In this document: in pieces, positions 41,913-51,190 of the stretch | Position numbering within the stretch: position 1 is the stretch's first letter | How the letters are laid out: every line of letters begins with the position of its first letter | Assembly (NCBI GenBank): GCA_029891345.1 | Contig: CM056995.1 | Location: forward strand, 80,105,895-80,169,894 | From: Dryococelus australis | Taxonomy: Eukaryota > Arthropoda > Insecta > Phasmatodea > Phasmatidae | Reading direction: 5' to 3' | Length of the DNA: 64,000 bases | Made by a program: the position numbers and the translations under genes | Notes under the pieces: generated by a model | Told to the model about the DNA's origin: nothing | The model's input: only the letters and a program-made list of their open reading frames with translations | Database searches by the model: none

Positions 41913-43510
41913 CTAGCGACCCGCCCTGGCTTCGCACGGGTGCAGTTAAGATAAAAAAAAACTGCTTAATCCGGCGTTAATTAGGTTGGGTAAACTCTCC
42001 TAAAGCATTAAAAAACGAAAATTATAATTTAATAATTAATTAAATAATTTATAATATAAAGTTTTTTTGCTATTTTGTTTGATATTTTTTTACGTTTTTA
42101 TAATTTTTCATATTAATATACATTATATTACAATGCAATTTATCTGGGATAGAAGTATTTAATATGTTATTGGCTAAGACATTCTCTGTAGACAATGTTT
42201 GACGTCCTGTTATTGTTTGGTAGCAAAATGTACTGTTTCTCGGGACTTCCAACTCGTGATAAACCAACATATAGTTGGCCATGGGAAAAACACTCTTTTC
42301 GTAGGTCGATTCCAACCAAAGAGAAAGTTTGACCCTGAGACTTATTAATAGTAATCGCGAACGATGTTTTTACGGGAAATTGCAACCGTTTGAAAGATAT
42401 TGGCAAATCCGTGGGAATCATGGGAATCCTCGGGATGTTTGCCAGCTGGCCGGCTGCTGGACCGGTGAGGATGGTCGCGACAATCGAATTTTCTTTCAAG
42501 TCTTTAATGAGCAATCTTGTGCCATTACACATGTTAGGAGGGCTTATATTCCTTAAAAGCATGATAGGAGTACCGACTTTTAATGATAGTTCGTGAGATG
42601 GCAAGCCAGAAGGAGTAAGCGAATTTAGAAAATCTTGAGGAAAGTGGACGACATCGTCAACATTGGTGACTGTGTCAATCGACTTATAGGTTTTGACTTG
42701 GCCGGGAACTCTTTGTATAATGAGATTGTTGATTTCATTGACAGTGTCGTTCCTAGGCGATACTATTGCCCTGGAACACAACCAGTGAAAGTCTCTTTCT
42801 AGTAAATTTTCGAGGCCCGGATACACTGCTTCTATAAGATGCTGCAGATTGTGGACTATCTGACCTAATGTCTCATTTAAAATGATTTCAGCAGATTTAG
42901 TGCCCAAATTTAGGGAAGGAAAAACTCATTCTCCAAGTCTGAGCAATTGTTGTGGGAAATCTTTATGCGTGTCTCCACCAAGATAGGCTCTCATATTCGT
43001 TCGCAAATTTAGGTGTTGAATATAACTCCATAAGGGAGATGATTTAAGACATGCTTTGATGATATCTGCACGCGTCCCTTTTGTAACTACAGGGAGTGTC
43101 TGCCGAAAATCCCCAGCAAACACAAAAGTAACTCCCCCCCATAATGGAAGTAGAGCTTCTAAGGTTGGGGCCGTACGCAGCACACAGCACGTTTTATTTT
43201 CCGAAACTGTCCGTCCTGCAAAGCCGTAGTACATTATTTTGTTCTATCATCAATAGTTTTCGCAGCGCACGCAATGTAAGGAATTTTATAGGTCATTTAT
43301 TTACACTTTGGGTTACGTTATTGGAGTTTTAGTAGGGATCCCTATTGATTTTTAAAATAAAATATAGCCTATGACACTCAGTGATAACGTAGCATTCTAC
43401 TGGTGAAAGAATTTTTAAAATCGGATTAGTAGTTTCGAAGATTACCTCCTACATCCAAACACACAAACACACAAAGTTACAAACACTACCTCTTTATATA
43501 TTAGTATAGA
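41913..43510 (-). mobile_element. Non-autonomous Helitron, complete ends
   Basis: Read on the minus strand, it starts TCTATACTAATATATAAAGA at 43510 and ends GGGTCGCTAG at 41913, the 5' TC and 3' CTAG (CTRR) of Helitrons. A short hairpin (ACCCG against CGGGT) lies just before the 3' end. The flanking bases are A before and T after, the standard AT insertion site without target duplication. It is only 1598 bp long and carries the C-terminal part of a Pif1-type helicase but no Rep (HUH) domain, so it is an internally deleted derivative. Confidence 0.9.
42167..43240 (-). pseudogene. Helitron Pif1-like helicase remnant (C-terminal part)
   Basis: Two minus-strand frames of 102 and 246 codons belong to one Pif1-family helicase, the C-terminal half of a Helitron Rep-helicase. 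The first contains VFAGDFRQTLPVV, the motif around helicase motif III. The second contains KVGTPIMLLRNI, then AITINKSQGQTF and GQLYVGLSRV, the last two being late helicase motifs. A stop codon around 42915 separates the two frames. The Walker A part and the entire Rep nuclease are missing, and the first frame meets the element's own 5' terminal non-coding DNA at about 43240, which marks an internal deletion. Not expected to be functional. Confidence 0.9.
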
Positions 43511-48397: not shown

Positions 48398-48890
48398 AAG
48401 AAAGGAGAGCTCAACAGCTATTAAGGTTTGAAAAAGACGACCCTAAGGCATGTCTTTGTGTATTGCCGACTAATAGTTGTTTGGAGTTAAATTATGTGTG
48501 TACTTTATTTCTGTTTATGCATTACTGTTCGTACAGGAAAAAATATGTCGTTATGTTACGTATGTTTTGTATCCATGTCAGAGTAAATAATGTAGTGCTA
48601 ATGTGCCCCATACAATATGCCATTTTCTGTCAAATATATACCCTTAAACATGACGTCTGTGGAAAGACGAATACTTTTTGAGTCACTGTGTATCACACAG
48701 TGTGATGGCTTCCCGTTCGGCAAGCAGATGAGCTGGTTCCTACACCGTTTAATACTCTTAACCTCCTCGTTCAGCAACTGTTATAAAGAAGCTGCACTTT
48801 GAATTATTTAATATCATAACACTGCATGTTTGGGAGACAAAGAAAGACGGTTATCACCTGGTACAATATAAATAAATGAGAGAAAGTGTC

Positions 48891-49172
48891 AAAAGTAAGT
48901 TCTGCGCGAGAGAAAGACAGGAACGGGTGTGGTCGTATCGGCCAGGCTGCGGCTCAGTGCCCGCTCCCGGGTACCGTCCCGCCACTGCTCGGCACGGTGG
49001 CTTCTAGCTGCTGGGTTTCCCCGCTGGCTCGGTGCGCCCCTCCTTGGCCAGCCTGGTCACCATGTTGATGTTGAGCTTAGTGTGGACATCCAGTCAACAT
49101 GGGAGGTTGAACTACAGGGCTCCCGATCTTCAGTCGCTGGATTACAGGAATGCGCCACAACTCCCAGCCGAC
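48891..49172 (-). ncRNA. 7SL (SRP) RNA copy lacking helix 6, probable pseudogene
   Basis: 7SL RNA is the scaffold of the signal recognition particle. On the minus strand this copy has the Alu-domain start GTCGGCTGGGAGTTGTGGCG, GATGTCCACACTAAGCTCAA in the helix 5 region, the helix 8 motif GGGGAAACCCAGCAGCTAG (SRP54 side) and CAGCCTGGCCGATACGACCA near the 3' end. Compared with the plus-strand copy it lacks 21 nt between ACATGG and TGACCAGG, exactly where helix 6 with its GGAG loop should be, which SRP19 binds. TATAT lies 28 bp upstream (49196-49200). A T run ends the likely transcript at 48891-48894. Probably non-functional, though its flanks are as well kept as its partner's. Confidence 0.75.
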
Positions 49173-50307
49173 AGTTGCTTCTTCCATACCGCGTCATATA
49201 ACTCTCGTGGTTCGCGGCTCCGCAATTATGAATTTTTTTACATGTCTTGTAAGTTGTTACAATAACTCATGATGCTCCTTTTCAAATGAAATAAAAGTAA
49301 ATGTGCAGTGTCAAACCAAAGTAACAATTGCCTGATAAATCTTTATTTTTGTTCGAAATGATATGTATCACAATTTAATCTCGGAAATCAGTCACTAATT
49401 TAAGTAATATTATTATGTCAATCTGCCGCCACACATTACATTTTACTTGTGTTGAATGTATTTACTGACGATTAGTACTTCCATAACCCATATTTCTAAA
49501 AAATTGGATATTACAAATTCTATGTAACGCACCACTTGGTTTTTAATTCCCAAATAAAAAATTTGCTGTCACGTTGAGCTATAGTTGCCAGTGATGTTGA
49601 ACCGCATTTGGTGATTCAGCGAGGGAAATTTTTGAGTAAAATGTATTGTTCGAACTACGAGAAAGAATGAAATTATATCTGAAATAATGATTTACCTCAC
49701 AAAGTAACTTTCGATCGCACGAAAATGTTTACTTGTGATTATTTACGTCTGTCTTAGGCATTAAAATAATTATACTTTTGCTTTATTTTTAAAGTGTTAG
49801 TAATAATTAATCTACATAAATTTGCGCGGTGGTTTATGAATTTCACAGGAATAGTACTTATTGAAAATAAAATATAACACGTTTTTATTTTAAAACATAA
49901 AATTCAGTGAAACTGGGTACTTTTTTTTCTGGATGGATTGCTGGATGCCACATATTATAGTGACCCAAATATTTCTAGAGAAAAAAAAACAGTTAAGTAA
50001 TTATTGCTTCTATAATCACTAAAAATATAAAGTGGCATGATTGTCATGGAAACAATTCCTTTATATGTGAAAAAATAATAAAATGTATTCTTATTGTGAG
50101 TTGAAATACGGAACATTGCAATTCTTAATTGTATATAGTGGGATGATCAATGTATCCCACGAGATTGACAAAAAAGGTTACGTAATAATTTTCTTGAACT
50201 TACACATCATCTGTCGTTTCAATTAAAAAGGAGTATCATGAGTTATTTTAACAATTTATAAGACATGTAAAGAAATTCGTCATTGCGGAGCAGCGAACCA
50301 CGAGAGC

Positions 50308-50312
50308 TATAT
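50308..50312 (+). promoter_or_regulatory. Candidate TATA element of the 7SL gene
   Basis: TATAT begins 28 bp before the inferred 5' end of the 7SL RNA and is conserved at the same distance in the inverted copy. This fits an RNA polymerase III promoter with an upstream TATA. Confidence 0.5.
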
Positions 50313-50335
50313 GACGCGGTATGGAAAAAGCAACT

Positions 50336-50639
50336 GTCGGCTGGGAGTTGTGGCGCACTCCTGCAATCCAGCGACTGGAGACCGGGCGTCCTGCAATTCA
50401 GCCACACATGTTGACTGGATGTCCACGCTACGCTCAATATCAACGTGGGGGCCCTGGGGGAGCGCGGGGTGACCAGGCTGGCCAAAGAGGGGCGCACCGA
50501 GCCAGCTGGGGAAACCCAGCAGCTAGAAGCTCCCGTGCCGAGCAGCGGCGGGACGGCATACGGGAGTGGGCACTGAGCCGCAGCCTGGCCGATACGACCA
50601 CACCTGTTCCTGCCTTTCTCTCCCGCCGAACTCACTTTT
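50336..50639 (+). ncRNA. 7SL (signal recognition particle) RNA gene
   Basis: Full-length copy of about 300 nt. Recognisable parts in order: the Alu-domain 5' end GTCGGCTGGGAGTTGTGGCG (50336); GATGTCCACGCTACGCTCAA (50419); the helix 6 hairpin with a GGAG loop (about 50447-50470); GTGACCAGGCTGGCC; the helix 8 signature GGGGAAACCCAGCAGC, then CTCCCGTGCCGAGCAGC (50508-50546); and the 3' CAGCCTGGCCGATACGACCA. Helix 8 and its symmetric loop bind SRP54 and helix 6 binds SRP19; both are intact here. TATAT sits 28 bp upstream and TTTT at 50636-50639 is a possible RNA polymerase III terminator. A TTT at 50615 could end a shorter form. The resemblance to primate Alu sequence is explained by Alu's descent from 7SL. 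The open frames here are not proteins. Confidence 0.85.
50636..50639 (+). terminator. Possible RNA polymerase III terminator of 7SL
   Basis: A run of four T after the conserved 7SL 3' region. The inverted copy has the matching run at 48891-48894. Confidence 0.45.
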
Positions 50640-50732
50640 GACACCTTCGCTCATTTATTTATATTGTACCAGGTGATAACCGTCTTTCTTTGTCTCCCAA
50701 ACATGCAGTGTTATGCTATTAGATAATTTCGG

Positions 50733-51190
50733 CTACAGCTGTCTTTAACAGTTAGCTGCCAGCATTTCTAAAATTGCTTAACAAGGAGGCTAGAGTACTA
50801 AATTATGATGGACTCAGCGTGTCTGCTTGCTGAACAGGACATCACTTTGTGTGATATATTTAGTTATAAGGTACTATTATCTCGATCTGCCAGGTCATGC
50901 TGACAGCAGAAAGAAATGTTAATGTAATAATGTGGTGGCCGCAACCTCAAATATCATTTAAATATGGAAGCAGGTTTGAGCATCATATACTTATACACTT
51001 CACCTGACATTATGTTCAACATAGAAAATTGAGAAGTTTTAAACGTTTTCGGTAACCGGATTCAGGGCTGACACTAGTGGACTCCGAACTAAAGCTTCAT
51101 ATATCAGCTCTCAGCATGAACGTAAAGCCGTATTCGGATCCCTGAGAAGACTTACTGGCTCGAAATATTTTTTTTTACATTGGCACATTC
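50733..51190. other. No recognisable gene
   Basis: No supported feature. Confidence 0.4.

Follow-up and report, generated by a model that had tools for sequence, protein, structure and literature searches.

The two 7SL copies of the window (the whole 64-kb stretch of DNA analysed here) most likely go back to a 7SL gene that was already damaged when, long ago, it was duplicated in inverted orientation, and would now be two pseudogenes. On the sequence comparisons described below, we give a probability of roughly 0.78 to the reading that the pair represents a dead side branch of the 7SL genes of this insect genome, having its promoter region in common with the array of 7SL copies referred to as C10. 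Both sequences belong by descent to the metazoan SRP RNA, since the Metazoa_SRP model (Rfam RF00017) matched on both strands of the window with 122.8 bits each, over a gathering score of 70 bits. The match on the plus strand (50340-50608) and that on the minus strand (48932-49168) point away from each other, so that the family assignment and the divergent orientation are as stated in the original prediction of an inverted pair of 7SL RNA genes. No other Rfam family reached its own threshold in the window and ARAGORN found no tRNA in it. The features of the locus are the following.

48691 to 49291, minus strand: left arm of the inverted duplication, gapped extent (alignment versus 50217-50856)
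48891 to 48894, minus strand: first four-T run downstream of the left copy, displaced (motif distance comparison)
48932 to 49168, minus strand: left 7SL copy (RF00017 match), 237 nt, degraded, without 24 nt of helix 5 and 21 nt including the helix-6 tip
49061 to 49062, minus strand: junction of the 21-nt loss taking the helix-6 tip, left copy only (alignment)
49124 to 49125, minus strand: junction of the shared 24-nt loss, left copy (alignment to C10 53877925; place ambiguous by a few bases)
49196 to 49200, minus strand: TATAT of the left copy, beginning at -32
49317 to 50193, no strand: inter-arm spacer, 877 nt, G+C 0.288
50217 to 50856, plus strand: right arm of the inverted duplication, gapped extent (alignment versus 48691-49291)
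50308 to 50312, plus strand: TATAT of the right copy, beginning at -32
50340 to 50608, plus strand: right 7SL copy (RF00017 match), 269 nt, degraded, a helix 6 and helix 8 being retained but 24 nt of helix 5 missing
50383 to 50384, plus strand: junction of the shared 24-nt loss, right copy (alignment to C10 53877925; place ambiguous by a few bases)
50636 to 50639, plus strand: first four-T run downstream of the right copy, displaced (motif distance comparison)

The inverted duplication itself is clear. The gapped alignment of the left and right arms runs over 644 columns at 81.8% identity (arms of about 0.6 kb, identity range 82-86%), its ungapped pieces pairing 48802-49314 with 50194-50728, and the local alignment score of the arm stretches was 778, as compared with a maximum of 329 and a mean of 29 for 194 pairs of 800-base segments drawn at random from this window. 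The TATAT motifs also lie at an equal distance in the two copies, as predicted, thereby providing both with the TATA-like box near -31/-24 that is expected of a functional gene; this upstream region is important for 7SL genes in mammals according to parts of one study (PMC7279448). A transposon as carrier of the arms was considered. Arm matches elsewhere in the genome were confined to the 7SL part and the promoter (33 matches, 17 candidates), and the sole genome match of the spacer part 49320-50190 was itself, the counts from these searches, in which very common words were skipped, being lower bounds. As for the statement that the pair comprises the only host-like genes of the window, it was set against ten of the 22 stop-to-stop frames of at least 120 aa; nine of these ten had no Pfam match at E 0.01. 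The other one, a 251-aa open frame at 42167-42922 on the minus strand, contains a Pif1 helicase 2B domain (Pfam E 4.7e-17) and may belong to a Helitron or to another Pif1-type element.

Functional 7SL genes have a complete helix 5 and an S domain with helix 6 and its tip, the latter being the SRP19-binding part. Neither window copy has this complete set. To call them near-complete, as was done originally, is generous: helix 8 is kept, but alignment to the C10 copy 53877925 revealed that 24 nt of the 5' strand of helix 5 are absent at the same place in both copies, and the left one has lost a further 21 nt. In covariance-model and MAFFT alignments the shared gap was spread over helix 4 and helix 5, the single 24-nt gap of the pairwise alignment to the C10 copy being preferred. 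The predicted downstream T run is present in both copies, but displaced, the first stretch of at least four Ts beginning 45 nt past an ATACG-like motif versus 19-24 nt in 11 out of 11 other copies compared, and at the 3' end of neither RNA is there a Pol III terminator (at least four Ts). When the Rfam structure was projected onto a C8 copy (120 pairs, counting as kept those that remain standard pairs), the right window copy kept 73 of 97 with 23 lost to gaps, and the left copy 63 of 85 with 35 lost to gaps; helices 8/7 retain 19 of 26 pairs in each window copy versus 20 in C8a. In single-strand folding the window copies did no better than shuffles (z -0.03 for the right and +0.72 for the left), the only other copies folded, one from C8 and one from C10, giving z values of -2.34 and -1.33.

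The differences accumulated between the two arms point in the same direction. Identity is 220/244 in the gene, 111/123 in the upstream flank and 197/224 in the downstream flank, and the gene is not significantly more conserved than all flanks (Fisher p 0.68) or than the upstream flank plus the near downstream 120 (p 0.43). Identity in 40-column windows is uneven along the arms, dropping to 0.78 in helix 5 and rising to 0.97 in the helix-8 stretch 50478-50518 and 0.95 in two windows around the gene start, with likewise 0.95-0.97 in downstream-flank windows. Left and right differ at 25 of 249 positions, and these changes ignore base pairing: 58 of 63 pairs were kept against a null of 58.0±1.6 (a value reached by 1230 of 2000 shuffles) and, in the opposite direction, 58 of 64 against 57.5 (1018 of 2000), although weak selection may persist given that the comparison is limited to these 249 positions. 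The purifying selection on the RNA since duplication that a functional gene should reveal is thus not seen in the pair. Changes which disregard base pairs and are alike in gene and flanks suggest drift without selection for SRP function since the duplication.

Two control sets help to read these figures. The C8 copies are 0.973 identical in the gene, while their flanks, forced to align, reach 0.72 and 0.79 with 42 and 68 gap columns; the 4-kb loci of these two copies have only 313 bp in common by BLAST. For the C10 copies, 20 of 21 pairs have a higher identity in the gene than in the downstream flank, the lone exception being the palindrome pair, whose downstream flanks are identical; compared with the upstream flank, the gene is not consistently higher, and this control is therefore mixed. 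Taken together, the shared deletion, the displaced terminator, the loss of the left helix-6 tip, the lack of gene-centred conservation, the changes indifferent to pairing and the poor folds argue against the central claim of the original prediction, namely that the two sequences are 7SL genes.

There remains the right copy taken alone, which might be a working divergent SRP RNA gene or the source of a shortened variant RNA, the left copy being its dead mirror image. It keeps a helix 6 (13 of 20 pairs) together with its TATA at -32, and in the comparison from C8a it retains pairs above the null (70 of 83, null 62.1, 3 of 2000 shuffles), in comparison with 61 of 72 for the left copy (null 56.6, 116 of 2000); from one C10 copy the values are 71 of 84 (48 of 2000 shuffles) for the right and 61 of 74 (165 of 2000) for the left. 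This excess of kept pairs between C8 and the right copy would nonetheless reflect constraint on the ancestor before the pair died, and we see in it signs that this ancestor was under constraint prior to duplication. Since then the right copy has changed as much as the left one (12 versus 11 of the differences, 2 being undecided). Among 202 positions invariant in nine other copies, the right copy departs at 18 and is without 18, the left departs at 15 and is without 27, and 7 departures are common to both. Together with the missing 24 nt of helix 5, the displaced terminator and the fold z of -0.03, these observations make a working right copy unlikely.

We therefore return to the reading of two pseudogenes, for which the following course of events can be proposed. 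A 7SL gene with a C10-like promoter would have become separate from the other lineages and reached the present locus. This founding copy would then have lost its T run and, by a deletion between short GGGA repeats, the 24 nt of helix 5, and the damaged copy would subsequently have been duplicated in inverted orientation, as DNA, because the duplication took in the flanks and the TATA box. The two copies may then have decayed evenly without selection for SRP function, the loss of the helix-6 tip, which affects the left copy only, probably coming later. This order is deduced from which damage is common to both copies and could have been blurred by gene conversion between the arms.

The kinship of the pair within the genome is better read from the promoter than from the gene. 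In the tree the window copies group together with support of 100/99 (98/96 with the Rfam consensus added), and under midpoint rooting C8, C10 and the window pair meet at one point without resolved order within the gene. A placement of the pair with C10 by the gene tree was dropped, as neither the midpoint root nor the Rfam-consensus tree gives a resolved place. At 25 fixed differences between C8 and C10 the right copy is C10-like at 14 and C8-like at 5, the left copy at 10 and 6, respectively; the Rfam consensus is also C10-like at 15 of the 25, and the C10-like states of the pair may therefore be old. The apparent kinship between the window pair and C10 rests on the promoter region. Over the 48 upstream bases each window copy is identical to each of seven C10 copies at 28-32 positions (0 of 2000 shuffles), versus 21 and 14 (right) or 20 and 15 (left) for the two C8 copies, the C8a identities with the window copies being equalled in 15 and 23 of 2000 shuffles. 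Upstream of the window copies, the similarity to C10 can be aligned for only some 20-50 bases.

These comparisons also bear on two further explanations. A transcript across both arms could form a long hairpin feeding small-RNA silencing, for which arms of about 0.6 kb with 82-86% complementarity and the 877-nt spacer would be suitable; however, the arms are imperfect, both TATA boxes face outward and the right 7SL part, only 72-74% like the C10 copies, would be a poor source of matching small RNAs, all of which renders a hairpin RNA locus very improbable. Least credible of all is a founding copy that arose as a retrotransposed 7SL RNA (processed pseudogene) and was duplicated in inverted orientation afterwards, for although 7SL retrocopy expansions are mentioned for marsupials and guinea pig in parts of one paper (PMC7245038), both window copies have kept, outside the RNA, the upstream likeness to C10 that a retrocopy is not expected to have, and no A tail was seen by eye.

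The pair is better understood against the other 7SL copies of the same 3.4-Gb genome, whose 79 matches to Pfam 7tm_6, a family of odorant receptors not known from outside the insects, mark it as that of an insect. An RF00017 search in which 26 of 27,237 first-look candidates were scored, its counts being lower bounds, retrieved at least 22 matches at E <= 0.001 and at least 13 over the family cut-off. The 13 listed over this cut-off comprise two copies on contig C8 (263.9 and 252.7 bits), eight on contig C10, one on contig C2 and the window pair, with the lowest scores of all. The C10 array spans 53853218-53967283 and contains its eight copies in mixed orientation (+ - + - - + + +; L011-L017), seven with 180-231 bits and one, without its 5' part, with 124.9. 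The C8 copies keep 98 and 97 of 120 standard pairs, six C10 copies 95-100 of 116-120, the C10 copy 53966986 92 of 120, the 5'-less C10 copy 80 of 106 and the C2 copy 83 of 114. This C2 copy (L018, C2:282657394-282657707) is a decayed full-length 7SL of 125.5 bits which has small insertions and groups with the C8 genes. Another locus (L019, C5:10615050-10615214) holds a C8-like 7SL fragment, with the S domain and 3' part, located directly behind a long TA repeat as judged by eye.

The seven longer C10 copies are diverged from the C8 genes by about 18-20% and yet seem to have preserved the structure. From C8 to these copies 85-93 of 95-98 pairs were kept, against a null of 75-80, a result matched by 0 of 2000 shuffles for six of them and, for the seventh, by 1 of 2000; each copy has 3-5 pairs in which both partners have changed. 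The 5'-less copy behaves similarly (72 of 86 pairs, null 61.4, 1 of 2000 shuffles) and the C2 copy exhibits no clear excess (79 of 92, null 74.5, 137 of 2000). This says that the C10 lineage has apparently been long held to the SRP fold, although the C10 copies are kin and the pairing excess represents one history, not eight; in four pairs tested within C10 no such excess was found. The C10 array is thus possibly a second class of SRP RNA genes, and the SRP RNA of the insect is probably supplied by the C8 genes and perhaps by the C10 genes too. Our literature search on diverged 7SL classes found nothing on the subject. The suggestion in the original prediction of a family expanding by inverted duplication fits this array better than the window, as the array includes a palindrome of 2,015 bp with 98.9% identity and two tail-to-tail 7SL copies (L013), whereas the window pair is older (Kimura distance between the arms 0.116 over 591 columns).

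Several weak genome matches turned out to be repeats that start at 7SL position 1 and continue for about 75 nt of 7SL before passing into other sequence. A DNA search gave at least 47 matches in 34 scored candidates, among which are both C8 genes and a tandem array (C3:1000853-1002537) whose period is 126 bp, and a 27-base head pattern allowing up to 3 mismatches had 20 occurrences in the genome as opposed to 0 for its reversed control. Of 30 loci from this search, 22 proved to be dispersed copies that carry the head in whole or in part; the dispersed 7SL-headed repeats (L040-L059, L062, L063) thus number about 20. The heads carry common changes absent from the aligned 7SL copies (two C8, one C10) and would therefore have spread from a common element rather than each from a 7SL gene; at least one repeat body is common to several copies, other bodies being unrelated. 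No convincing target-site duplications were found among exact matches of 9-20 bases at 30 loci, a set with three loci from one tandem array, two C8 copies and three without head (L064-L066); matches of 9-11 bases at five loci (L040, L048, L050, L052, L053) come without a chance control. At L050, the same place as L027, the 7SL head appears by eye to run into a stretch encoding an AGDFNA-like motif, which we take to be a LINE endonuclease motif. If these repeats are a SINE1-like family it would be one of low copy number, and it is put forward here as a candidate only. On the basis of HMM hits, Alu-type elements are reported for 48 arthropod genomes in parts of Petersen et al. 2019 (PMC6327564), and parts of the work on nine German cockroach SINEs (PMC9191728) name 7SL only as a general kind of head; our literature search for an insect 7SL SINE, covering part of the matches and mostly judged by title, found no title on it.

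It is tempting to join all these elements into a single scheme in which C8 and C10 are two long-separated, structure-keeping SRP RNA classes (about 18% apart), the window pair represents a third branch, with a right copy from which a shortened variant RNA is still made, and the 7SL head founded a SINE1-like family, the first well-described in an invertebrate. As a whole we consider this scheme rather improbable. The dead side branch remains our preferred reading of the pair, which consists of real 7SL copies, ordinary in kind, and is of use in drawing attention to the C10 class as well as to the 7SL-headed repeats. One large insect genome would thus display SRP RNA copies as canonical genes, a diverged structure-keeping array class, dead copies and 7SL-headed repeats. 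Were the C10 class expressed, it could be asked whether an insect uses distinct SRP RNAs, and should the 7SL-headed repeats prove to be SINEs, the origin of 7SL-derived SINEs would not be confined to vertebrates.

Compared with the metazoan 7SL genes described by RF00017, the window copies are alike in their match to model positions 1-299, their GCUGGG start, helix 8 with its GAAA loop and the TATA-like box near -30, and differ in a helix-5 strand 24 nt shorter, the displaced terminator and, in the left copy, the missing helix-6 tip; they score about half the bits of the C8 copies. With the C10 array they have the upstream region in common, as well as the occurrence of inverted copies, including the 2-kb palindrome, but the seven longer C10 copies have a full helix 5 and all eight have a terminator, and the 98.9% identical palindrome is arranged tail-to-tail whereas the window pair is head-to-head and older. 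The pair also resembles 7SL pseudogenes made by DNA duplication, a known kind: a decayed gene copied with promoter and flanks, with conservation not above that of the flanks. The window pair is set apart from these by its inverted, back-to-back arrangement and by shared damage that is probably older than the duplication.
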